A stretch of DNA of 64,000 nucleotides, from NCBI GenBank assembly GCA_937991945.1, contig CALKLO010000028.1, positions 1 to 64,000 of the forward strand. Reading direction: 5' to 3'. This document shows positions 37,723 to 50,969 of the stretch, in pieces; the stretch's first letter is position 1; each line of letters opens with the position of its first letter. The DNA comes from an uncultured Granulosicoccus sp. (GTDB lineage: Bacteria; Pseudomonadota; Gammaproteobacteria; Granulosicoccales; Granulosicoccaceae). The notes under the pieces are model-generated. The model did not search any database. It saw only the letters and a list, made by a program, of their open reading frames with translations, and was not told where the DNA came from. The position numbers were made by a program, and so were the translations under genes.

Positions 37723-39774
37723 ATGAAAGGAATACTTCACCAATTTAATTGCTCTACGCGCGCTGCCATCATGGTGGTGGGATGTTTGGTGCTATCGGCC
37801 TGTAGTTCAAGCGACAGCACGGTAACCCCACCCATAGATGACTCTACTGGTGTGGGGCAAGCCATTCAGACATCAATCCCTATCTTTAACGAAAGTGGGC
37901 CGGCGCTTCAGCGTTTCACTCTCGATGAAGATACGTTATTACGGGGGCGATTTTATACCGCCACTCTCCCGTCTGAGGGTGCTGCGACTATTCGATCGTT
38001 ACCTGCGGAAGGGCTTCTGACGCTTCAATCTGACGGGGAAATATTTCTCTACACCGTTAATGAAAATTATTTCGGCACAGATTCGTTTAGTTACTTCACT
38101 TACGATGGTCAGGAAGTATTAGTCGAGTTTACTATCAACTCGATCAATGACGCGCCGTCGCTATCAGCAGATGTGCCACGAGTTGCAGAGCAAGGGCGAC
38201 GCTTCGTTGCATCGCTGGATGCCACTGATGTCGACGATTCTGACCTACGATACAGTGCGAATGGAATACCAGCCTGGTTGAATCTGGATCCTAATTCAGG
38301 TGTTTTGAGTGGACAGCCAGATCAAACTGAAATTGGGTTTAGCTCTGATGTGACTTTTCGTGTGACTGACCCTAGTGGTTCGTTTACTGAAGTCACGGGT
38401 GTCAGGTTCGAAGTCATCGATGTCAATGATGCGCCGACACTGAACTTATCTCAGCTGCCAGCCGAATTAGGTGCTCGAGAGAGTGTGTCAGCACAAGTGT
38501 TCCCAGATGATCTCGACGGGGACTCGGTAACGCTTACCATCGAAAGCAATGCGTTCATTGACAGCGAAATAAGAGGCGGTTCAATAACACTCACTGCGGC
38601 TGACGTGAATGACGTAACCGAGGTTAATGTCGTAATTACAGCAATCGATAGAACAGGTACACCGAACCGCGAAATCCTACCGTTAACAATATATCCTCGC
38701 ACAGCGTCAGGAGCCCTAACGTTGCTTGGTAGTAAGCAGGGACGCGGAGTACATTTGGTATTGCTGGGAGATGGCTATGCAGATGACCAAACAGTCCTGT
38801 TCAGAGAGCATGCTGACAGCGCGATAGAGAGCATACGTTCCGATGAGGGTATCGGGGAACATATGGGCGCATTTAACATCCACATGATTAACACCGTATC
38901 AGTGGACACAGGTGCGGATGACAACGAACAGGTCGACAGCAGAAATACTGCGTTTGATAGCGCCTATAACTGCGGTGGTGTCATACGATTGATTTGTGCT
39001 GATACGCTAAGCATGTTTGAAGCGGCGCTCAGTGAATATCCATCGGTGGATCAAATTGTTTTGTTGGTCAACGACACCCGCTATGGCGGTAGTGGTAACA
39101 GCGGCGGCAGTGTAGCGATTACATCCGCTTATTTTCCTGAGATTGCTGTTCATGAAATGGGTCACAGCCTAGTTGATTTAGCCGATGAATATGTCGACAC
39201 TCTGATAGAAGAATCTTCAGGCTTATTACTCTTCCAGGAAGGGCGCTATGACAACGTGACGGCATTGAGTGACCCTACATTGGTCCCTTGGGCGCATTGG
39301 ATTGACCCTGCTGTGTCGTTACCACAAAATTTTGGACAACCTGGTGTGGGCGTATTTGAAGGCGGCTTGTACCGTTCCACCGGAATTTTCAGAGCTACCT
39401 TCAACAGTCGCATGCGACTCTTTGATGAGCCGTTTGGTTCTGTAAACAGTGAGCGCTGGATACTGCGTCTTTATTCGTTAACAGAAGGAATAAGAGGTTT
39501 TTCACCAAATAGTGAAAACGTCAATCTAGCTGCTGGTGAGTCGCAGGAATTCATAGTCAGCCCCATTTTCGATGATGGCGTCCAAGCGGTAGAATGGATG
39601 TTAGACGGAGTAGTGCAAACAACGGAAGAGGGCCAACCTAATAGGCTGACGTTGTCGCTTCCAGTCGGAACCCACACAGTGTCACTTAAAGTCAGCGATG
39701 TAACCGGAAAAATTAGACTACCTCCGCCGCATGCTGGTATTTTCAATTGGAGCTGGGAAGTGGTTGTCGAATGA
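37723..39774 (+). CDS. Lipoprotein with cadherin-like domains and an M64 metallopeptidase domain
   Basis: 683-residue secreted protein. A lipobox (LVLSAC, cysteine near 27) predicts outer-membrane anchoring. Then come a tandem-95/cadherin-type repeat (DSFSYFTYDG, NDAPSL), a dystroglycan-type cadherin-like domain (WLNLDPNSGVLSGQP) and another (NDAPTLNLSQLP). An M64 (IgA peptidase-like) domain begins VHLVLLGDGYADDQ with zinc site HEMGHSLVDLADEY (His477, His481). A C-terminal Ig-like segment (EWMLDGVVQTT) ends it. It probably cleaves extracellular protein or matrix; its substrate is unknown. It overlaps the next gene by ATGA. Confidence 0.85.
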   Translation: MKGILHQFNCSTRAAIMVVGCLVLSACSSSDSTVTPPIDDSTGVGQAIQTSIPIFNESGPALQRFTLDEDTLLRGRFYTATLPSEGAATIRSLPAEGLLTLQSDGEIFLYTVNENYFGTDSFSYFTYDGQEVLVEFTINSINDAPSLSADVPRVAEQGRRFVASLDATDVDDSDLRYSANGIPAWLNLDPNSGVLSGQPDQTEIGFSSDVTFRVTDPSGSFTEVTGVRFEVIDVNDAPTLNLSQLPAELGARESVSAQVFPDDLDGDSVTLTIESNAFIDSEIRGGSITLTAADVNDVTEVNVVITAIDRTGTPNREILPLTIYPRTASGALTLLGSKQGRGVHLVLLGDGYADDQTVLFREHADSAIESIRSDEGIGEHMGAFNIHMINTVSVDTGADDNEQVDSRNTAFDSAYNCGGVIRLICADTLSMFEAALSEYPSVDQIVLLVNDTRYGGSGNSGGSVAITSAYFPEIAVHEMGHSLVDLADEYVDTLIEESSGLLLFQEGRYDNVTALSDPTLVPWAHWIDPAVSLPQNFGQPGVGVFEGGLYRSTGIFRATFNSRMRLFDEPFGSVNSERWILRLYSLTEGIRGFSPNSENVNLAAGESQEFIVSPIFDDGVQAVEWMLDGVVQTTEEGQPNRLTLSLPVGTHTVSLKVSDVTGKIRLPPPHAGIFNWSWEVVVE

Positions 39775-40295
39775 TTAAAGGGCTATTGCTAGTCAGTGCA
39801 TTGCTGATGTCAAATCTGGCATCAGCCGATGTACGCGTGCTAATAAGATTCGATTCATCAGGTCACTACACGCATCGTATTTTTGATATGGCTTCAAGTG
39901 GCCAGTTTGAGATAGGGCAAAAAACAGCAAAGCAATCGGATTTGAAGTCGACACCCATATATTCAGCGAGTCCAATAAGTCGTGGGCGTTCAGTTGCAGG
40001 GGCGAGTTCATTACCTAGAGCTGCAAAAGGTAGTGCCGATATAAACGGGTTTATTCGATTGGTTTGGAAGCAAGCGGATGGCGTGCAACTGGCACAAACT
40101 CAAATACCTGACCCTCGCATAGTTCATTCGCCAGCTCACGTTCAAGGCTTTCAAGCCTCTAGAGCTGCTTTAGAATCAGGGGCTTGGCTGGCAACAGGGC
40201 CATCCGATGCTACGTCAGTCGTTATATATATGCCTGAATCAGTCTCATTAGGGCTTATGCAAGAGACCTGGACGCTGGCATTGAATGTGAAATAG
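39771..40295 (+). CDS. Secreted protein of unknown function, coupled to the M64 peptidase
   Basis: 174 residues with a clear signal peptide (MIKGLLLVSALLMSNLASA). The start ATG overlaps the peptidase stop (ATGA), so the two are translated together. The mature part has no domain I recognise; it is rich in beta-forming segments (ADVRVLIRFDSSGHYTHRI near the start, VVIYMPESV near the end). It may be a partner, inhibitor or chaperone of the peptidase; that is inference. Confidence 0.75.
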   Translation: MIKGLLLVSALLMSNLASADVRVLIRFDSSGHYTHRIFDMASSGQFEIGQKTAKQSDLKSTPIYSASPISRGRSVAGASSLPRAAKGSADINGFIRLVWKQADGVQLAQTQIPDPRIVHSPAHVQGFQASRAALESGAWLATGPSDATSVVIYMPESVSLGLMQETWTLALNVK

Positions 40296-40461: not shown

Positions 40462-42432
40462 ATGTCGAAAACAGAATTCGATCGCGACAAACCGGACCAA
40501 GAGTCCATGTTCGACTTCTTATCAGAAGACGACGAGCAGCGCAGTGCACGTAAAAAAGTAGCCAGAAAGGGTAAGCGCAAGTCGATGCCGGCTATGCCGA
40601 CCATACGTAAGCCTGTACCCATCTCTAAGTCGGGGCCGCTATTAGCGCCAAAGCCAGGCGATCCAGTAGAGCCTCCACCTCCATTGACTACGGGTAAAGT
40701 CCCAGCAGTTTCGGATGATCTTGCATTTCTTGATGAGACGCGAGCAGAATCGCCCGATTTAAGCCCGGTTTCTAAAAAGGGCGCTGAAAAGCATTCTGAG
40801 ACAATACGCCCTGGCAACGTACAACAAGCCAATCAGAATTCGGCCAATGACGAGGATTCAGACTTAGCTCGCGAGTTCAGCTCTTTTGGGCGCGACAAAG
40901 TAGATAACATCGATTTCGATAAAAACTGGGGAGAAGGGCATCTCAACTATGAGAGCCAAGAAGACAATCCGAAAGAACGTCTAATTCGCTGGATAGCGTT
41001 CGGTGGCGCTGCGATTCTTCTCATCGGTGGTGGTTCTTACCTTTTCATGTCAGGTAAGGCTGATCACCTATTGTCAGGGCAAAGTGATCAAACAACGTCA
41101 TTAGAAAGTGCGGTTACAGGTACAACTGTATCGGATGCTACGGCATCGGCTATTGAGACCACGGCTCTAGAAACTGCACAAGTTCCTTCAACGATGCAAC
41201 GATTTCTTGATCAGCAAAGTGCTATCGAAGCATTGATTGGCCAAGGATCATTAGACGAAGCTAAGTTAGCATTAAGTTCTATGGATCGCACCCTGTACGG
41301 TTATGGTGCATCTGAATTTCAGTTACTGGAGTCGCGTATCGAATCGTTGCAAAGCGAGTCAGGTACACCGTCTGAGTCTGCTACCAATGAAGCTGAGGCT
41401 TTGCGACTGGAAGAGCTTAAACGTTTAGAGCAGCTTGCTCTAGAATCACAGGCAGAAGCACAAGCAGAAGAAGCCGCTCGTTTAGCCAATGTTGAGCTGG
41501 CGGAAAAGAATGCGGCTGAGACTGTACGCTTAGAGCAAGAGCGACTAGCAAAGCAAGCGGCTGAAGTTGAGGCTGACCGTATAGTTCAACGTCGTTTTGC
41601 AGAAGAGCAAGCCGAGGCGCTTCGGATCGAACAAGCAGCGGCGCGCTTAGCGGCACAGCGTGAGCAAGATGCGGTAAGGCTTCAAGCGCAAAAAGAAGCT
41701 GATGCTGCGGACTCGCAATCAATAGCTGACGCGAGCGAGGCTGCTAGGCAAGAACAATTAGTACAAGCTCGATTGGCATCAGAAACTGCTGCTGCCAGAG
41801 CCGATAAAATTCGCTTAGACGCCTTAGAAGAAACAGCTAGAGACGAAGCAAGGCGTCAAATAGCAGAAGCTGACCGACTGGCCACTGACAGACGCATAGC
41901 CGAAGATCGAATTGCGGCAGAACGAAGAGCAGCACTTGAGCAACGTTTGAAGCGGACGCGAGAAATAGAAGCGGCAAATGCTGCTGAAACAGCACGCCAA
42001 GCAGATGCTCAATCCAATTCACGAAACACAGTTGCATCTACAACACAAGATCAACGCCAGTCTAATAACGCAAGTGCTACCCAGTCTGCTGGTCGTCCGA
42101 TTACGGATGCCGAGTTGCAAACTGTTTACCGACAGTTTTCTGAGTTGCAAGAAGCTATTGCTGAGCGTGACATAGGTCAGGTAGTCAACTTGACAGAACG
42201 CTCTGGCCTTCGGGTTCAGCAGTTTATGCAGGTGTTTGAAAATAGCGTCAACATCAATGTGAGAATCCGAAACGTTTCCACCAGTAACGCTACAGGTGAA
42301 ATAAACGGAACGCTTCAAATTCAATCTATAGAGCGGGCGGACGGTAGTCGTGCCGTGCCTCCTGAAAATCTCGAATCCATTCGCATTTCAACCCGTCGCG
42401 ACGGCAACGGTTGGTCACCCATCAGTTGGTAA
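40462..42432 (+). CDS. TolA-like single-pass membrane protein with long charged helix
   Basis: About 656 residues. An N-terminal cytoplasmic part of about 170 residues (charged, proline-rich, with MFDFLSEDDEQ) is followed by one membrane segment (WIAFGGAAILLIGGGSYLF, about 175-197). An Ala/Glu/Arg-rich coiled coil spans about 310-515, and a C-terminal domain (about 547-656, from ITDAELQTVYRQF) resembles NTF2-like folds. The layout recalls TolA, spanning the periplasm, but no TolA domain III signature was seen and no tolQR genes adjoin it. It is followed 35 bases later by the Ig-like membrane protein. Function unknown. Confidence 0.75.
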   Translation: MSKTEFDRDKPDQESMFDFLSEDDEQRSARKKVARKGKRKSMPAMPTIRKPVPISKSGPLLAPKPGDPVEPPPPLTTGKVPAVSDDLAFLDETRAESPDLSPVSKKGAEKHSETIRPGNVQQANQNSANDEDSDLAREFSSFGRDKVDNIDFDKNWGEGHLNYESQEDNPKERLIRWIAFGGAAILLIGGGSYLFMSGKADHLLSGQSDQTTSLESAVTGTTVSDATASAIETTALETAQVPSTMQRFLDQQSAIEALIGQGSLDEAKLALSSMDRTLYGYGASEFQLLESRIESLQSESGTPSESATNEAEALRLEELKRLEQLALESQAEAQAEEAARLANVELAEKNAAETVRLEQERLAKQAAEVEADRIVQRRFAEEQAEALRIEQAAARLAAQREQDAVRLQAQKEADAADSQSIADASEAARQEQLVQARLASETAAARADKIRLDALEETARDEARRQIAEADRLATDRRIAEDRIAAERRAALEQRLKRTREIEAANAAETARQADAQSNSRNTVASTTQDQRQSNNASATQSAGRPITDAELQTVYRQFSELQEAIAERDIGQVVNLTERSGLRVQQFMQVFENSVNINVRIRNVSTSNATGEINGTLQIQSIERADGSRAVPPENLESIRISTRRDGNGWSPISW

Positions 42433-42467
42433 ACGAGTCGTTTAACTAACTAGGTACCCCGAATTAT

Positions 42468-43070
42468 ATGCAAGACTTTATCAACACGCGGTTACTGGCG
42501 GTGCTAATTAGCGTCGTGCAACTTTTCTCTTTGCCGGGTATGGCCTGGGCTCAACAGGCGGATATTGATCCTCCAGTTATTGAGTTTGAAGCGGTATCGT
42601 CTGGCAATGCGGGTGACAGTCAGGTGTTTGCTGCAACCGTGGCTGACAATGCTGTTGTGCAATCGGTGTCATTGTATTATCGGTTTGCCGAGTCAACTGC
42701 TTTCGATAAGCGTTCGATGACAATGCTTGGCACGAGCGGTATTTATACGGTGAGTATCACTGGTGAAGAACAACCTACCGATTCAACCTTTATTCAATAT
42801 TATATTGAGGCTTTTGATGAGGCTGGAAATCGTGCGTTGCAAGGGTTCGCATTTGATCCTATCGAACGCCAACTGGTTACACCTGTGGCAACGGCAGGTT
42901 CACAGGTTCCAGTCGAGCCTATAGAGAGTACAGGGATGTCGTTAAATCGTAAGATTTTATACGGCGCAGTAGGGCTACTGGTCATTGGAGTTCTTGCCTC
43001 AGCAGCAGGCGGCGGTGGAAGTTCAAGTGCAGGAGTGCCCGTTACGGTTGTAGTGGGGCAGATACCATGA
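42468..43070 (+). CDS. Membrane-anchored periplasmic protein with one Ig-like domain
   Basis: 200 residues: signal peptide ending in AWA near residue 28, an extracellular-type beta domain (IDPPVIEFEAVSSGN, SLYYRFAEST, QYYIEAFDEAGN) of the Ig/FN3-like kind, then a C-terminal membrane segment (YGAVGLLVIGVLASAAG) and a short glycine-rich tail. The stop overlaps the start of the thrombospondin-repeat gene by ATGA, which couples their translation. No known family name. Confidence 0.75.
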   Translation: MQDFINTRLLAVLISVVQLFSLPGMAWAQQADIDPPVIEFEAVSSGNAGDSQVFAATVADNAVVQSVSLYYRFAESTAFDKRSMTMLGTSGIYTVSITGEEQPTDSTFIQYYIEAFDEAGNRALQGFAFDPIERQLVTPVATAGSQVPVEPIESTGMSLNRKILYGAVGLLVIGVLASAAGGGGSSSAGVPVTVVVGQIP

Positions 43071-45475
43071 ATGACAAAGGAGTTATCAGTCGCGTGTTAA
43101 AACGACTGTTCAAAGGAATTGTGTTTTCGAGCGTATTGGTTGCGCTATCTGCCTGCAATCAACAAGACGAAAACGACACCGTAGGTAGTGCTGGTGGTAC
43201 AGCCAACATGGCGTTTTCTGCACCTGATATTTTGCTGCAAGCTAGGGCTATTGTTCGTCAAAATCTGATTTTGAGAGTGACGATTAATGGACAAGTCGTG
43301 CAAGTCACACCAGATGCTGACGGACAATATATCTTTGAAACTAGCCTTCCTCCGTTGTCTTCAACGGTCGTTTCGATTGAGTGGGTGGAGTTGATCGATG
43401 GCGCTGAGTTACCGTTGGCACGAGCTAGCAAGCCGCTGAATGTCGGGTCGGTATCCAGTCCGGTCGTACTGAGGTTTACAGAGTTTGATACATCCATCGA
43501 TTCTGATAACGATGGATTCTCCAACCTCCAAGAGCGTCGAGAAGGGTCTTTATTCAATGATTCAACATCACCGATAGCTCCTCCGGTACTAGTGAATTTC
43601 GAGGTGCAATTAAAATTACCTGTCGAGCTTGTCGAAGCCTCTGAAGAGAGGCGGGCGGCAGTCGATGCAACAGCCGCTGTTAATGGCGTGCAAATTGTAC
43701 TGACGCGTGAAGGTAATGATTGGCGTGGATCGGTCACCGTGACTGAAAACTCTGACCCGTTGGTTGATGCTAATTTCTACTCTGATGCGGAGCAGACCTT
43801 ACTTATCGCCAATGCGTCGCGTAATCAAAACGCTGGTGGTGGAACCACTGTTGTTATTGGTGAAAATGACTATGAAACAGACAGTTTTGACAATGATGGC
43901 GATGAGTTAAGCAATATCGAGGAAACAGCATTAGGTACGGACCCATTAGATCTAGAAGATCCGCCTGCTGATGAAGACAATGATGGTGTTCCAGACGAGT
44001 CTGACAACTGTCCGATCAATCCTAATGCTGATCAGGCTGATATAGATAATGATGGAGCCGGCGACGTTTGCGATCTAATTAACGATGACGATACAGATGG
44101 CGACGGTGTTAATAACGATGTTGACAACTGTCCTGCTCGAGCAAACTCTGATCAAGCGGACCGCGATGATGATGGTCTGGGCGATTTGTGCGACCTGTCT
44201 GATGACACTGATACAGACGGAGACGGTTTTAGAGACGCTATAGATAATTGCCCTGCTATCGCAAACGTCGATCAAAGCGATGTCGATGGCGATTCTGTGG
44301 GTGATGTGTGTGATTTGATCAATGGCATTGATCCCGACGGCGATAGCGTCAACGACCCCAACGATAATTGCCCGGTAGATGCCAATACAGACCAAGCAGA
44401 TATCGATGCTGACGGCATTGGTGATGTATGTGATTTAACTAACGGCCTAGATCCTGACGGTGATGGTGTGAATGACCCCTTAGACAATTGCCCCACTGAC
44501 TCTAATAGCGATCAGGCGGATATCGACGGTGACAATATCGGAGATGTATGTGATCTGACGAATGGTCTTGACCCTGACGGCGACGGAGTAAACAACCCAA
44601 CTGATAATTGTCCTGCCATCCCTAATGCTGATCAGGCAGATACCGATGGAGACGAAATTGGTGATGTTTGCGACTCCACCAACGGATTAGATCTAGACGG
44701 TGACGGTGTCAATAATGATGTGGATAACTGCCCATCAGATAGCAATGCAGATCAAGCTGACTCTGATGGCGACGGTATAGGAAACGTGTGTGACACCACC
44801 AATGATTTGGACCCTGATGGGGACAACGTTGACGATCCATTGGATAACTGTCCAGTCGATGCAAATGCTGACCAAGCAGATATTGATAGTGATGGCGTAG
44901 GCGATGTCTGCGACACCACAAACGGTCTTGACCCTGATGGGGACAATGTTAACGATCCGTTGGACAACTGCCCAGTCGATGCAAACACAGACCAAGCTAA
45001 CAATCACGGCACAGCGTTGGGTGACGTTTGTGAAGATACCGATTCAGATACGATTTTTGATAACCTCGATAACTGTCCAGTGGATGCCAATACGAATCAA
45101 GCGGATGCTGATGGTGACGACATCGGAGACGTATGCGATACGAGTAGCGGCTTAGATACTGATCTCGACACAATACTCGATGCCGTAGATAACTGCCCAA
45201 CTGATGCTAATACTGATCAAGCGAATAATTTCGGCACCGCATTGGGTGATGCCTGTGAAGACACCGACTTAGACACAATAGTAGATCTCGCTGATAACTG
45301 CCCAATAGATGCCAATCTAAGTCAGGCTGATAACCACGGCACGACATTAGGCGATGCGTGCGAAGACACCGATCTCGATACGATATTAGATGACGTCGAT
45401 AACTGCCCAGTCGTAGTTAACCTGGCTCAGCTCGATACTGATAGCGATGGTGTAGGAGATGCCTGCACGGTTTAA
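43067..45475 (+). CDS. Lipoprotein with 13 thrombospondin type 3 repeats
   Basis: 802-residue calcium-binding surface lipoprotein. The lipobox is ALSAC near residue 30. Residues up to about 300 form Ig-like beta domains and a first EF-hand-like segment (DSDNDGFSNLQE). From 313 to the end there are 13 units starting DNCP. Ten are canonical, most about 40 residues (DxDGDGVGDVCD); three are 35-residue variants lacking the acidic loop (ANNHGTALGDVCED). Asp-rich loops of this kind bind Ca2+ and give stiff rods. No OmpA-type or autotransporter domain follows. A surface adhesin or spacer role is likely but not shown. Confidence 0.88.
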   Translation: MNDKGVISRVLKRLFKGIVFSSVLVALSACNQQDENDTVGSAGGTANMAFSAPDILLQARAIVRQNLILRVTINGQVVQVTPDADGQYIFETSLPPLSSTVVSIEWVELIDGAELPLARASKPLNVGSVSSPVVLRFTEFDTSIDSDNDGFSNLQERREGSLFNDSTSPIAPPVLVNFEVQLKLPVELVEASEERRAAVDATAAVNGVQIVLTREGNDWRGSVTVTENSDPLVDANFYSDAEQTLLIANASRNQNAGGGTTVVIGENDYETDSFDNDGDELSNIEETALGTDPLDLEDPPADEDNDGVPDESDNCPINPNADQADIDNDGAGDVCDLINDDDTDGDGVNNDVDNCPARANSDQADRDDDGLGDLCDLSDDTDTDGDGFRDAIDNCPAIANVDQSDVDGDSVGDVCDLINGIDPDGDSVNDPNDNCPVDANTDQADIDADGIGDVCDLTNGLDPDGDGVNDPLDNCPTDSNSDQADIDGDNIGDVCDLTNGLDPDGDGVNNPTDNCPAIPNADQADTDGDEIGDVCDSTNGLDLDGDGVNNDVDNCPSDSNADQADSDGDGIGNVCDTTNDLDPDGDNVDDPLDNCPVDANADQADIDSDGVGDVCDTTNGLDPDGDNVNDPLDNCPVDANTDQANNHGTALGDVCEDTDSDTIFDNLDNCPVDANTNQADADGDDIGDVCDTSSGLDTDLDTILDAVDNCPTDANTDQANNFGTALGDACEDTDLDTIVDLADNCPIDANLSQADNHGTTLGDACEDTDLDTILDDVDNCPVVVNLAQLDTDSDGVGDACTV
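44003..45475 (+). repeat. Coding tandem repeat, 120- and 105-base units
   Basis: Thirteen DNCP-type units, encoded mainly as 120-base blocks with three 105-base variants (starting near 44963, 45188 and 45293). DNA copies are diverged in sequence but keep period and frame. The 105-base forms cluster in the last five units, where canonical and variant units mix. Confidence 0.8.
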
Positions 45476-45594: not shown

Positions 45595-46203
45595 ATGAGA
45601 CTTGTACTCCTCCTACCGCTAGTTCTAGGTTTTTGCACCGCCGCATTGGTGACAATGACGTCGTTCCCTGCAAGAACTGTGTTGGCAAAGGATAATCCCC
45701 TAGAAATCCCACAAACCACCGATTTGTTGTTGGATATCGAGTACTACGAAGATGACGACTACGGATTTAGCGTCGCGATACCCGCAGGTTGGCAAAAAGT
45801 GGTTGCCGTTCAGTCAGAAGAAAATTTTGGAATTCTAGAGCCTGGTTACACCGTCGGTTTTGAAGCCCCAAAATACGGCGAGATGGATCTATTCGCCGAC
45901 TACATCATGATCGAAATATTGCCAGGCAATGACTCTGGTGCCTTCGAAACCGATGGTAGCAACCGGATAGAGGTGTCGATAGATGGCAGCCCTGGCTGGA
46001 TTGATATGCTCGATATCAAAGCCACTGAGACAGGCCTAAAAGACGTCGAACTGACTATCTATCAAGCTCAAATTAGCGGCCTGGGTTACACCGTCGGGCT
46101 CTACGCTATTGGAGAGCCCGATCGGGGAGAGCTTATGTCGACAGCTTTTAAACTACTCGTGAGAACATTCGGTTTCTTGGTAGAACCTTACTCAACTGCT
46201 TGA
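45595..46203 (+). CDS. Secreted protein of unknown function
   Basis: 202 residues. A hydrophobic N-terminus (LVLLLPLVLGFCTAALVT) predicts export; a signal-peptidase site near residue 31 is likely. The rest is soluble, with DDYGFSVAIPAGWQKVV, which resembles the opening of PsbP/MOG1-like folds, and no catalytic motif. It is convergent with the first GH16 gene, with five bases between stops. Identity unknown. Confidence 0.7.
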   Translation: MRLVLLLPLVLGFCTAALVTMTSFPARTVLAKDNPLEIPQTTDLLLDIEYYEDDDYGFSVAIPAGWQKVVAVQSEENFGILEPGYTVGFEAPKYGEMDLFADYIMIEILPGNDSGAFETDGSNRIEVSIDGSPGWIDMLDIKATETGLKDVELTIYQAQISGLGYTVGLYAIGEPDRGELMSTAFKLLVRTFGFLVEPYSTA

Positions 46204-46208
46204 TCGAA

Positions 46209-47987
46209 CTATAAGCCGTCTGGGTAGCCTTCTGGCCACTCTTCAATGGTTGGACGATGACTCGGTGATGAGTTACCGAAGATACCGTCTGAGTAAGGAA
46301 CTTGCGTCTCGCCATCACTAAACAGTACATCGTCGTAGGGTTCGGTGCTTTGATAAACCCTGATGTAGTCAATCGTATATTCCCCTGGGAATGGAGTGCT
46401 TTCATCGGGTGAGCCTGCCCACCAACCACCTAAAGCGGTATTCGCAATAACGTACATTTCCTGCTGCGATACTTTCGGGTCAGTAACTCGATGAACCTCT
46501 ACGTTGTTAACGTAGAAAATGATGGTGCCTGGTTTCCATTCCACTGCATACGTATGAAAGTCAGAGGTGTAGTCGACGCCTGGAGTAGGCTGAGAAGACG
46601 TTGATCGTAGCTGTCCTTCAGAATCGAAGTAGTGGTATGTGTGATAAACCACATCTTGGTCGTGCCCAATAAACTCCATGATATCTATTTCGGGTTTGTC
46701 GTCCACGTAGTAGGCGTTTAGCAGCCAAAACGCAGGCCAGTAACCTCTACCAAATGTTACTTTCGCACGTGTTTCAACATAACCGTAAGTAAACTTGAAC
46801 GCGTCGTAGCTGGTTATAACGCCAGATAGATAAGGTTGGTTCAACGATTTGCTCAACAGCTCATCAGGTGTTTTGATTGAATTGATAGTTAGGTGTTCAC
46901 CATCAAAACTAAACGGGTCATAACCGAAATCGGGATCGTTCATCGTATCAACATAGAACTGTTCTTCACTGTTGATGATGATGTCTGTACCCCACAGATA
47001 AGAGGTATTCCACTTAGTGGGATCTAACTCGGTACCGGTGAATTCTTCTGAGAAAACTAGTTCATAGTTATCTAAAAGATCCGTTCTAGGCACAGGTGCA
47101 TCTGGATCAATTCGGCCAAAGGTACGAGCCTTAACAGTCAAACCAGTCGCGACGTAATACAAAGTGTCGTCATTGTCGAACGCTTGAATTTCGTAGTAGT
47201 AATCGCGATCAAAAACGTCTTCGTCAATGTACTCTTCGGTAAACACGGACGTAACAAATTGAGCCTGACGATAGACGTTGTAGCCACGCGCATCTGGATC
47301 TACTGGCCACGTCACTCGTATGGAATCATCGAGCACTTCTCCGTTGAATCCAGGTGTGGTCGCAGAGAAAAACTCTGTAGTCGTGTTGGTTTGAGTTTCA
47401 GTTGTTGACCCTGTTGTGTTAGTAGAACCACCTGATTCCTCGGGAGGCGTAGGCTCTTCTTCAGGTGCTTGTATTGCGCTGTTATCAGTTTCCTCTTCAG
47501 GTTGCTGCAATGCGTCAACAGGTGCCTCTTCAGTAAGCGCCGGATCTGGAGCACTCTCTTCAGCCGCAGCCTGTTCAGGCTCTGATGGTTCGGAGGCTGA
47601 ATCAGTCGTGCTGTTTTCTTCAGTGTTTTGATCAGTGCTGCTAGTGGAGTTCACCAACGTGGAGCTTCCAGAATTGGCTGTTGGCACTGAACTATCTGGC
47701 GTCGCAGCGCCCAGATCAGGGCTTGCTGATACTGATATATCAGGCGCAGCGATATCACCTGCGGCCACTGCTTGGGCAAATGTGACTGAATAGTTTGCAT
47801 CATTAGACAGCTGTGCCGCACTAATAGACGGGCCTGACACAGCGGCTTCACTGGTGTCGCTAGATGTCGCATCAGAGGTTGGTGTACCTGCACCACACGC
47901 GCTCAGAACACCTAGGAGAGCTAATGAGGCCGCGGTTGAGCACGAACGTTTAGTTTGACCGCTAAGTGTTAAGTGTCGTCGATTCAT
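46209..47987 (-). CDS. GH16 family glycoside hydrolase lipoprotein with FN3 domain
   Basis: About 592 residues, probably an endo-beta-1,3-glucanase (laminarinase) or agarase/carrageenase-like enzyme. Lipobox VLSAC near residue 35, a Ser/Thr/Glu-rich linker of about 150 residues, a fibronectin type III domain (IRVTWPVDPDARGYNVYR), then the GH16 fold from YELVFSEEF. The catalytic motif EIDIME is intact: nucleophile Glu433, Asp435 and acid/base Glu438. Many tryptophans line the cleft, including GGWWAGSPDES. Start ATG 47987 is preferred over TTG 47999. It is a paralogue of the GH16 at 50031. Confidence 0.9.
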   Translation of the reverse strand: MNRRHLTLSGQTKRSCSTAASLALLGVLSACGAGTPTSDATSSDTSEAAVSGPSISAAQLSNDANYSVTFAQAVAAGDIAAPDISVSASPDLGAATPDSSVPTANSGSSTLVNSTSSTDQNTEENSTTDSASEPSEPEQAAAEESAPDPALTEEAPVDALQQPEEETDNSAIQAPEEEPTPPEESGGSTNTTGSTTETQTNTTTEFFSATTPGFNGEVLDDSIRVTWPVDPDARGYNVYRQAQFVTSVFTEEYIDEDVFDRDYYYEIQAFDNDDTLYYVATGLTVKARTFGRIDPDAPVPRTDLLDNYELVFSEEFTGTELDPTKWNTSYLWGTDIIINSEEQFYVDTMNDPDFGYDPFSFDGEHLTINSIKTPDELLSKSLNQPYLSGVITSYDAFKFTYGYVETRAKVTFGRGYWPAFWLLNAYYVDDKPEIDIMEFIGHDQDVVYHTYHYFDSEGQLRSTSSQPTPGVDYTSDFHTYAVEWKPGTIIFYVNNVEVHRVTDPKVSQQEMYVIANTALGGWWAGSPDESTPFPGEYTIDYIRVYQSTEPYDDVLFSDGETQVPYSDGIFGNSSPSHRPTIEEWPEGYPDGL

Positions 47988-48213
47988 TTTCGGTACCAAG
48001 GGCGTTCCGTTTTGTGAGCTAACTCACGTGAAATGAGGTTACTCGCACTGTGTTTAGAGCTAAAAGGCCTTAATTAAAACGCTCTGTTAGGGGTATCGGA
48101 CTCTGAGCCAAAGCCTTGATAAATAAACCTCAGAATTGGAAACAAGTCTTAGTTGGCCTGCTGGCATGCTTTCTGTTGGGCTTTACCAAGAACCTAAGTC
48201 TTTGGAATCGCAA
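47988..48213. promoter_or_regulatory. Divergent promoter region between GH16 lipoprotein and barrel protein genes
   Basis: 226 bases without a gene, between two divergent starts, so it should hold both promoters. No clear -35/-10 pair or dyad was resolved. Confidence 0.4.
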
Positions 48214-50016
48214 ATGCGGCCGCATATTATTAAAACCTCGGTAGCGTTGTTTATTAGCACGCAGTTTTTATCGTCTCCTACATTAGCCTCCGAATGGAAT
48301 GGCAGCTACTCAGCAGAAGGTCAGTGCTACTGTGTGGGTGTCGTCGATGAAGGAGTAAAGAACACCATTGTGCCGACGCCGATAGGGGGGCAAACAGTCT
48401 CACAAGTGTGTCAGCGAATCGGCGCAGGGCCGGGTCTTTCTTTTGACAGCGGTCAATATAACCACCCAGTGTACGAAGACGCGCAGTGCGGGCATGGACC
48501 CCCAGCTGCACAAGTAACCTCAAGTTCGGCTGCAGCTAACACACAGTGTGCAGGTTCACTGGATGGTCTAGGTCAAGACTCAGCCTCTTGCCAAGCGATT
48601 GGTCCTGAATGGGATGTCAAGGCAGCGTTTGCCAAGCCATCTGCAGCACCGACAACAAGTCCTAAGGCAGAGGCAGCGAAGCCTGGCGTAACAGTGGTCT
48701 CTACTAAGAGCGCTAAGGAGGACGCGGAGGCAGTCGCGGACGCAGTCGCGGACGCAGATGCAGATGCGGCCGCACCTCAGTCAACTAGCTTGATAAATAA
48801 ACCCGTAGTTACCTCCGTGACTGTGGAACAACCTGCAGACGGAGAAATTGCCGGCAAAACGCTTAAAGCTACCGTTATAAGTTCAGCGTCTACTGCTGGG
48901 CGAAAACTGCCTAAGCGTGAGAAGCTAGAACCGTTTACCGGGAAAGTCATAACGATTGATGGTCGTCGTTATATGCAGGCACGAGAGAATATTCCGACAA
49001 AAGGCGGGGAGCCTGGTACGAGAATCATAGTAGATGGTTCTGTGTACCTTTTAGATAATGGCAATATTGAGCCTGCCGACTTGTACCGAAAGCAAGCAGG
49101 TAAGGCTAAGAAGCCTGCGAAAAAATCAGCATCGAATTCGAGTAAAAAACCGGTTTCGCAATCTGTAGCGAAGCTACCAACACAACCTGTTTCAAAAGCC
49201 AACACTGCTCGTGAAAAAATACCGTTAGCACAAGTAAAGCCGCGTATTCCGAGTACGAATGGGCGCAATGAGATACCCGTTGAAACGAAAACAGCGGCTG
49301 TAGTAAAACCTATCGTTGAGCCAGTGAGTGACATAGAGACGACCAGAAATCCTATCGTTATTGTTGCAGCTCCGAAGGCGTCTACACCCATTGTTAAGAA
49401 ACCTGAGACTACGGAATCACAAGTTGCAGCGACTAATATTGAATTAAAAAATGGTGCGGATACTAGTAACGATACGCAGGTTGGTTTTTTGTCTGCGTTA
49501 AAGCTACCAGCAAGCGTTGAACAGCGCGTTGACAGTTTCTCGTACGTTGAAGCTATGCCTGTTAACTATGATGTTGGCGGAAATGGATTTGCATTTAAGG
49601 GCAGCACTGAAAGTCATTCTCGCTTTCATTATGTGGGACGTGCTGCAGTCACGAATAGCTACCAAGAAATGATGCTAGGCGGTGGTCTATACGTAACGCC
49701 GTATGCGGCTAATCGTGTAACGATGGTTCTGCAAGCTGGTGTTGAACACGGGTCATTTCAATTTGATGATGATCAAGATGCCAGCATCTCCGCTGACTAC
49801 AGTGACACAGGTTTATACGTGAGTGCGGCGACTCGTCTGGTCCTTAATCATCGTATGGAACTAAGAGGTGGTTTTGGCTACAGCACCTTTTTTAAAGGCG
49901 ATGTAAGTGCCTTCGGAGGGGCCTACTGGCATATCACCCGACATCTCGATTTCGTCACCAGTTTTGAATTAGGTGACAATGATCTACTCGGTCTTGGCGT
50001 TCGATATTACTATTAA
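48214..50016 (+). CDS. Outer-membrane barrel protein with Cys-rich N-terminal domain
   Basis: About 600 residues. The signal peptide ends in LAS near residue 26. A cysteine-rich domain of about 100 residues follows (GQCYCVG, VSQVCQRIG, EDAQCGHGP, TQCAG, SCQAIG), then a repetitive Ala/Asp segment, a VITIDGRRYMQAREN-type domain, a Lys/Pro-rich linker, and a C-terminal region of alternating strands ending GLGVRYYY, as in small outer-membrane beta-barrels. The final aromatic residue fits Bam recognition. No named family. It sits between two GH16 genes, so a surface glycan-binding role is possible. Confidence 0.7.
   Translation: MRPHIIKTSVALFISTQFLSSPTLASEWNGSYSAEGQCYCVGVVDEGVKNTIVPTPIGGQTVSQVCQRIGAGPGLSFDSGQYNHPVYEDAQCGHGPPAAQVTSSSAAANTQCAGSLDGLGQDSASCQAIGPEWDVKAAFAKPSAAPTTSPKAEAAKPGVTVVSTKSAKEDAEAVADAVADADADAAAPQSTSLINKPVVTSVTVEQPADGEIAGKTLKATVISSASTAGRKLPKREKLEPFTGKVITIDGRRYMQARENIPTKGGEPGTRIIVDGSVYLLDNGNIEPADLYRKQAGKAKKPAKKSASNSSKKPVSQSVAKLPTQPVSKANTAREKIPLAQVKPRIPSTNGRNEIPVETKTAAVVKPIVEPVSDIETTRNPIVIVAAPKASTPIVKKPETTESQVAATNIELKNGADTSNDTQVGFLSALKLPASVEQRVDSFSYVEAMPVNYDVGGNGFAFKGSTESHSRFHYVGRAAVTNSYQEMMLGGGLYVTPYAANRVTMVLQAGVEHGSFQFDDDQDASISADYSDTGLYVSAATRLVLNHRMELRGGFGYSTFFKGDVSAFGGAYWHITRHLDFVTSFELGDNDLLGLGVRYYY
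48730..48765 (+). repeat. In-frame tandem repeats in the barrel protein gene
   Basis: GCAGTCGCGGAC occurs twice (48730-48741, 48742-48753), followed by GCAGAT twice (48754-48765). They encode an Ala/Val/Asp-rich spacer. Units are multiples of three, so copy-number change would alter length without shifting frame. Confidence 0.6.
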
Positions 50017-50021
50017 GGAGG
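50015..50021 (+). promoter_or_regulatory. Ribosome binding site setting the second GH16 start
   Basis: AAGGAGG ends directly at the ATG 50022, too close for use, but lies nine bases before ATG 50031. The start is therefore taken as 50031. Confidence 0.6.
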
Positions 50022-50030
50022 ATGCGTAAA

Positions 50031-50969
50031 ATGAATATGAAACTATCAAATAAGGTACGCATTGCAGCACTCATCGGTGCAACTTTGTCGCTTAGTGCTT
50101 GCGGTGAAAGTGATTTAGTTGAGCTCGAAGAGCGGCAACTTGCAGTCGCAAGGTTTGCTGCCGCAGCCGCTGCTACGCCAGCGCCAGGAGGTGAAGATGC
50201 GGATACAGAAACACCCAGTACGGGTGTAGATTTAACTCAATACAATTTAGTATTTAGTGATGAGTTTAGATCAGGATCCCTAGATTCAAGCAAATGGAAT
50301 ACCGCGCTAACGTGGGGGCCTGACTTAGTCGTCTACAACCAATTGCAGTATTACGTTGATATACAAAATGACACTGATTTTGGCTATGACCCCTTTACCT
50401 TTGATGGTGAAGTGTTGACCATTAGTGCAACAGAAACTCCCGATGCACTTCGCAGCGCTGCCAATGAGCAGCCTTGGTTATCTGGTACGCTGACGACAGC
50501 TGGGAAATTTGATTTCACTTACGGTTACGCTGAAGCATCCATCGACTTGCAAGAAGGTAGAGGACTATGGCCAGCCTTCTGGATGTTAAGTTCTGAATTT
50601 GATAATTTGAAGCCAGAGCTTTTCATTATGGAATACGACGGGGCTAAGCCTAACAGTCTATTTCATAACTACAACTACACTGATGCTGACGACTTGCTTC
50701 GTTCGCCAGGTCAATGGGAAGTATCGTCAGAATCATTTTCTGATGGCTTTCAAAAAGTCGGCGTTGCATGGTCGCCACAAGAATTATTGTTTTATATAAA
50801 TGACGTACCACGATATCGTATCGTCGGAGAAAACGTTAGCAGTCAAGATATGTACTTGATACTTAGTTTGGCGGTCGGGGGTATTTGGCCAGGTGCTCCA
50901 GATGGTACGACTCCGGTGCCGTCGACTACACGAATCGATTACGTACGGGTTTATCAACTAAACGAATAA
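50031..50969 (+). CDS. GH16-fold lipoprotein with altered catalytic motif
   Basis: About 312 residues. Lipobox LSAC near residue 24, a short linker, then a GH16 domain from YNLVFSDEF. It shares long segments with the GH16 at 46209 (NDTDFGYDPFTFDGE here; NDPDFGYDPFSFDGE there). The active-site motif reads ELFIME (196-201): both glutamates remain, but the central aspartate is phenylalanine (Phe198). This Asp normally supports the nucleophile, so activity may be lost or changed, leaving a glucan-binding protein. The open frame is intact. It begins 14 bases after the barrel gene, probably in one operon, and its stop is three bases from acpS. Confidence 0.88.
   Translation: MNMKLSNKVRIAALIGATLSLSACGESDLVELEERQLAVARFAAAAAATPAPGGEDADTETPSTGVDLTQYNLVFSDEFRSGSLDSSKWNTALTWGPDLVVYNQLQYYVDIQNDTDFGYDPFTFDGEVLTISATETPDALRSAANEQPWLSGTLTTAGKFDFTYGYAEASIDLQEGRGLWPAFWMLSSEFDNLKPELFIMEYDGAKPNSLFHNYNYTDADDLLRSPGQWEVSSESFSDGFQKVGVAWSPQELLFYINDVPRYRIVGENVSSQDMYLILSLAVGGIWPGAPDGTTPVPSTTRIDYVRVYQLNE

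Follow-up and report, generated by a model that had tools for sequence, protein, structure and literature searches.

The three adjacent genes at 40462-45475 of the window (the whole 64,000-nucleotide stretch of the Granulosicoccus contig that was analysed) raise the question of whether their products form a single device across the cell envelope and, if so, what kind of device it is. The original prediction placed three adjacent genes here, the last two overlapping by ATGA, and proposed a TolA-like inner-membrane helix connected to a calcium-stiffened surface rod. The layout was confirmed, with genes A, B and C co-directional and head to tail, a spacing of 35 bp between A and B, and the ATGA at 43067-43070 forming the overlap of B and C:

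40462..42432, + strand: gene A, 656 aa; homologues share an MSxPxFD start, which supports the ATG at 40462
42468..43070, + strand: gene B, 200 aa
43067..45475, + strand: gene C, an 802-aa lipoprotein

Conservation of this order across genomes, which the original prediction had named as its own test, was borne out by A-B adjacency in 23/23 orthologous loci and by a C gene adjoining B in 20/23. These counts are far above chance, and a chance adjacency of the three genes is thereby ruled out. The usual order was aminotransferase, M64 peptidase, small gene, A, B, C, E, GH16, OMP and GH16. Near A, an M64 (IgA-type) peptidase lipoprotein with cadherin/Ig domains (37723-40295) is overlapped by the gene of a small secreted-type protein to which no family was assigned (39747-40295), and this pair keeps its place beside A in most genomes of the genus. 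Downstream of C, a conserved block (45595-50969) encodes a small secreted-type protein (45595-46203), a minus-strand GH16 lipoprotein, a protein (48136-50016) with a terminal OMP-like beta-barrel domain, and another GH16 protein; a short 12-bp tandem repeat within the OMP-like gene (48723-48757) encodes an Asp/Ala run.

Gene A encodes a cytoplasmic N-terminal tail, one membrane span, a long charged stalk, and a C-terminal NTF2-like domain, here called Act:

40507..40521, + strand: MFDFL motif in the cytoplasmic tail, kept in nearly all orthologues of the genus
40597..40692, + strand: Pro-rich cytoplasmic segment PTIRKPVPISKSGPLLAPKPGDPVEPPPPLTT, whose core P-I-I-R-x-P-V-P-[IV]-S-x-S-G-P is conserved among orthologues
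40993..41049, + strand: membrane span, residues 178-196, hydropathy 1.77 over 19 residues, N-in/C-out by charge
41362..42066, + strand: predicted helical stalk, residues 301-535, charged and composed of Ala/Glu/Arg/Gln with 1 Pro and 1 Gly
42091..42429, + strand: Act domain, residues 544-656, NTF2-like by AF2 and Foldseek, with HMM matches in kinases and caspases

The cytoplasmic tail is conserved over about 175 residues and carries a second motif, [D/A]FL, near residue 85. The stalk is a 235-residue stretch that is probably long, charged and helical. No 3.5-residue hydrophobic periodicity was detected in it (p 0.42-0.94 for the whole region and 0.97 for local windows), in simple global and local tests, which would still accommodate a lone charged helix or coiling over short stretches. 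The single hydrophobic span and the long charged stretch that had been proposed for A were thus retained, whereas the coiled coil was not. The C-terminal 113 residues were modelled by AF2 with a pLDDT of 96.6 and a pTM of 0.88, and Foldseek matched the model to the NTF2-like structures 3b8l and 3cnx (E 2e-4; TM 0.67 and 0.64) and more weakly to 3gwr (a CaMKII association-type domain, E 6.5e-3) and 7o21 (Bdellovibrio Bd1075). A sequence search against the PDB returned only noise, and the fold was revealed by the fold search. A had no Pfam match, including none to a Pkinase domain, and neither Act nor B is covered by a Pfam or NCBIfam model. The possibility that A is a degenerate kinase was considered and rejected, as its N-terminal part is of low complexity, with short conserved motifs and without a kinase signal; judged from its sequence, A is a kinase-less relative of the Act-bearing kinases described below and not itself a kinase.

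A resembles TolA in its inner-membrane anchor, its long charged helical region and its C-terminal periplasmic domain. However, it differs from TolA in its conserved cytoplasmic tail and in the NTF2-like nature of its C-terminal domain, which is shared with kinases. No TolA domain was found in A with Pfam or NCBIfam models, and its neighbours are M64, GH16 and OMP-like genes instead of tolQR-tolB-pal. The idea of a TolA-like device was consequently abandoned.

Gene B encodes a signal peptide, one Ig-like domain, a C-terminal hydrophobic helix, and a Gly/Ser tail:

42576..42878, + strand: Ig-like domain, residues 37-137, modelled as a sandwich with a pLDDT of about 97
42942..43007, + strand: C-terminal hydrophobic helix, residues 159-180, by hydrophobicity

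The nearest solved relative of the Ig-like domain was the IgLF domain of Porphyromonas gingivalis PPAD (profile hmmsearch E 3e-9; Foldseek E 1.6e-7, 28% identity), which in PPAD follows a deiminase domain, whereas in B it stands alone with a signal peptide and a C-terminal helix. A multi-domain Ig adhesin was rejected as a description of B, which itself has one Ig domain. Giant deltaproteobacterial or unassigned proteins with 10-17 tandem B-type Ig domains were also observed (L216, L223, L229, L235). The Gly/Ser-rich tail of B (43008-43067) ends in a short hydrophobic, beta-like stretch and a Pro, and a Pro lies within the last four residues of 78/102 B proteins. Lys or Arg occurred just before the helix in 97 of the 102 proteins, and any Lys or Arg after it in only 24. 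This charge pattern is the opposite of that expected under the positive-inside rule for an inner-membrane anchor that follows a cleaved signal, and argues against such a simple anchor. Of the earlier description of B, the Ig-like domain and the C-terminal hydrophobic helix stood; the helix is possibly inserted in or near the outer membrane.

Gene C encodes, after an LSAC lipobox, two domains here called Cn, followed by an array of thrombospondin type 3 (TSP3) repeats, in agreement with its description as a thrombospondin-repeat lipoprotein. The lipoprotein cysteine is Cys30 (LSAC-N).

43154..43576, + strand: Cn domain 1, residues 30-170, common to B-linked lipoproteins
43592..43966, + strand: Cn domain 2, residues 176-300, by sequence comparison
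43973..45466, + strand: TSP3 array, 13 repeats (Pfam PF02412, E 7e-85)

Cn domain 1 is a beta domain that ends in a DxDxDGxSNxxER calcium-loop-like motif, and a single DxDxDGxSN-type loop closes each of the two Cn domains. The number of TSP3 repeats in orthologous C proteins, estimated by counting DNC, ranged from 0 to 13. In at least four species (genomes G002, G008, G021 and G025), the orthologue is a protein of 265-275 aa that comprises the two Cn domains and no TSP3 repeat; the others carry 3-13 repeats or Gly/Thr/Asp runs. The array can thus be ruled out as the conserved core, and it is variable and dispensable among orthologues. In C-type lipoproteins in general, the outer extension is optional and consists of a TSP3 array, a CBM9 carbohydrate-binding domain, or beta-propeller-like repeats. 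Some calcium dependence of C may nevertheless persist through the loops of the Cn domains.

These results bear on a purely structural role, in which A, B and C would bridge the inner membrane and the outer membrane or surface, with the TSP3 repeats as a calcium-stiffened stalk and no signalling. The long helical stalk of A, the repeats of lipoprotein C, and the absence of an effector domain at this locus are in its favour, and the overlap of B and C would imply a complex. Yet the TSP3 repeats that would form its rod are missing from, or partly replaced by Gly/Thr/Asp runs in, the orthologues described above, the heptad test of the A stalk was negative, and conservation falls on Act, B and Cn, parts that in other genomes accompany kinases, a phosphatase, and an FHA regulator. 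A structural link is therefore considered unlikely, and the calcium-stiffened rod did not hold as the core function. What stood of the original prediction is the notion of one envelope-spanning set, from A in the inner membrane to lipoprotein C, that is not represented in Pfam or NCBIfam; the NTF2-like domain of A, the two N-terminal Cn domains of C, and the kinase/caspase family to which they lead go beyond it.

Gene B was present in 36/36 genomes of the family that were searched, with 2-4 copies in most. Nearly all of the extra copies whose surroundings were read were followed by a lipoprotein matching the first 150 residues of C, that is, a Cn domain. These paralogous Cn lipoproteins mostly end in a CBM9 domain on a variable linker (PF06452, E 1e-13 to 1e-18 in the four that were scanned). 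There were 2-3 further B-C pairs per genome without an adjoining Act gene, suggesting that B and C can work without Act. These pairs would also suit a display platform, in which B and C present carbohydrate-binding or adhesive lipoproteins (CBM9, TSP3) on the surface and A is an assembly or export factor. The copy in the window has GH16 enzymes and an M64 peptidase as neighbours, and the genus is an abundant bacterium of kelp surfaces (PMC9238374), both of which agree with this role. However, a display platform leaves unexplained why a kinase, caspase or channel is fused to Act and why PP2C and FHA-sigma-54 partners occur, and the smallest C proteins, at about 180 aa, have no binding module. 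We regard it as distinctly unlikely.

Comparison with other bacteria indicated what the conserved parts have in common. In Nitrospirota and some ten additional families of Gammaproteobacteria, transmembrane Hanks-type Ser/Thr kinases have Act as their extracytoplasmic C-terminal end; in these other genera and families, the Act-kinases adjoin B and a C-type lipoprotein. In a class-wide sample of 369 genomes, B was found in 24, Act in 18, and both in 16; outside the family, about 13/16 Act matches had a B gene no more than 3 kb away by coordinate comparison. In a phylum-wide sample, Act was detected in no other genome. Among 99 compact B loci, Act was encoded within 1.5 kb in 60, Cn in 71, either in 92, and both in 39, proportions that describe B loci and not all Act proteins because the locus sets were collected through B; the class-wide Act search provides an independent check on them.

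The protein in the position of A varied in its effector. The commonest form was a kinase, a membrane span, a helical or TPR stalk, and Act. The cultured Granulosicoccaceae strain I2M11, for instance, carries a kinase copy with B and two C genes (K-B-C-C). In an alternative form, seen in several lineages, a secreted caspase-like protease precedes Act (L094, L138, L161/L166, L153/L096, L249, L119); Pfam confirmed the caspase domain (PF00656) in L138 (E 5e-36) and L094 (E 6e-16), and it was recognized by motif in L161, L153, L249 and L119. In a third form, a TRIC-type channel and a span precede Act (L106:8608-10419 and L109:706-2379; TRIC/Gly_transporter PF03458, E 4e-29 in L106), with a Cn lipoprotein and B alongside. 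The A of the window and its orthologues represent a form with a span, a stalk and Act but without an effector domain. One locus (L236:762-2051) encodes a direct fusion of a caspase-like protease with B, and a Cn lipoprotein comes next. The clusters of Candidatus Manganitrophus and its relatives in the Nitrospirota have the order Act-kinase, FHA-sigma-54 activator, small protein, PP2C phosphatase, B, and Cn lipoprotein (L202:655-7403 and L205:120-6000, with the Cn lipoprotein in L202).

In a tree of Act (113 columns), the A proteins without an effector, from the genus and its neighbours, formed one group of 21 (SH-aLRT 94) among the kinase forms, which is consistent with a single loss of the kinase domain in this lineage, given a short alignment and moderate support. 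Many forks of the tree were unresolved. The effector changed at least 3 times, and about 8 times on the best tree, although strict support is compatible with fewer caspase origins.

That kinase and caspase have replaced each other repeatedly on one adaptor could suggest a module that is triggered by stress or attack and ends in cell damage, as in conflict systems, in which the caspase form would proteolyse and the kinase form would signal. The patchy distribution of Act (18/369 genomes) and the weak similarity of the caspase to the EACC1-associated type fit such a module. On the other hand, the caspase forms bear signal peptides, and they would thus act outside the cytoplasm; the module occupies stable chromosomal neighbourhoods, not islands; and the copy in the window has no effector. 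This explanation is considered very unlikely.

Taken together, the comparison of Act, B and their Cn partners points to a signalling receptor family rather than to a TolA-like device or a calcium rod. The locus in the window has Act at the C-terminus of A, B adjoining it, and a Cn lipoprotein beside B. Our preferred reading, to which we assign a probability of roughly 55%, is that A-B-C is one copy, lacking the kinase, of a three-part receptor module that recurs in Gram-negative envelopes and has exchangeable effectors. The Act-B-Cn module itself is well supported, and its signalling role and the role of A are inferred. The first part of the module would be the periplasmic NTF2-like Act, joined through a stalk to an exchangeable effector that is usually a cytoplasmic Hanks-type Ser/Thr kinase; the second, the exported Ig-like protein B with its hydrophobic C-terminal helix; and the third, the lipoprotein C with its Cn domains and optional outer extension. 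C, at the outer membrane or surface, would sense or grip a ligand, B would link C to Act and relay the state of C, and Act would control the effector. Gene order and one fusion suggest that Act, B and Cn interact. In the A of the window, the conserved MFDFL/Pro-rich tail that takes the place of the kinase may dock a cytoplasmic partner, and A would then be a co-receptor or scaffold. The genome of the window contains an Act-kinase elsewhere (G000:C53), one of its three protein-kinase matches, and one PP2C gene, and we would guess that this kinase is a natural candidate partner of the tail. Most genomes of the genus that were checked likewise have an Act-kinase elsewhere, unlinked to B-C. This lack of linkage and the absence of an effector domain in A count against the receptor reading, as do the B-C pairs that lack an adjoining Act gene and the charges around the helix of B. 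A broader proposal, which we put forward tentatively and at somewhat less than even odds, is that Act-B-Cn is a general envelope cassette of bacteria with unrelated outputs (Ser/Thr kinase, secreted caspase-like protease, TRIC-type channel or, in the simplest case, a cytoplasmic docking tail alone), and that in the lineage of the window the sensing half has been split from its kinase to become a co-receptor that works with the unlinked kinase.

By analogy, the nearest functional counterpart appears to be the TagQRST-PpkA-PppA-Fha threonine phosphorylation pathway, of which A-B-C is not a member, judged from the loci compared. In the H1-T6SS of Pseudomonas aeruginosa, the outer-membrane lipoprotein TagQ recruits the periplasmic TagR, which activates the kinase PpkA (PMC6657622). 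There, the lipoprotein and its periplasmic partner feed into a membrane Ser/Thr kinase, a PP2C phosphatase, and an FHA effector, and parts of the same kinds are found together in the Nitrospirota clusters. However, the lipoprotein and periplasmic proteins described here have no Pfam link to TagQ or TagR, and the Nitrospirota output is an FHA-sigma-54 activator instead of Fha1. The loci compared contained no TagS/TagT ABC pair, and a Pfam scan of neighbouring genes gave neither a VWA domain nor a T6SS gene. Ser/Thr kinases with NTF2-like extracytoplasmic sensor domains have precedent (DUF4878 and related; PMC3924330), and Act-kinases share with them the kinase, the membrane span and the extracytoplasmic NTF2-like domain. 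Act proteins differ from these in their long helical or TPR stalk, in their fixed neighbours B and C, and in the loss of the kinase or its replacement by a caspase or channel; the DUF4878, DUF3828 and DUF3887 models had no Pfam match in A or the Act-kinases. The association (hub) domain of CaMKII (PF08332) is likewise NTF2-like and forms the C-terminal end of a Ser/Thr kinase, but the likeness is one of fold only, with no sequence match, and Act is extracytoplasmic.

No description of the trio was found in the open-access literature that was searched, and A-B-C seems to belong to a receptor family that has yet to be described. How signals from the outer membrane reach the transmembrane Ser/Thr kinases of Gram-negative bacteria is understood mainly for TagQRST of the T6SS, and the trio, found beside kinases, a PP2C phosphatase and FHA-sigma-54 activators, provides a concrete candidate receptor. 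Furthermore, a single periplasmic adaptor on which kinase, caspase and channel replace one another would tie kinase signalling to secreted bacterial caspases.
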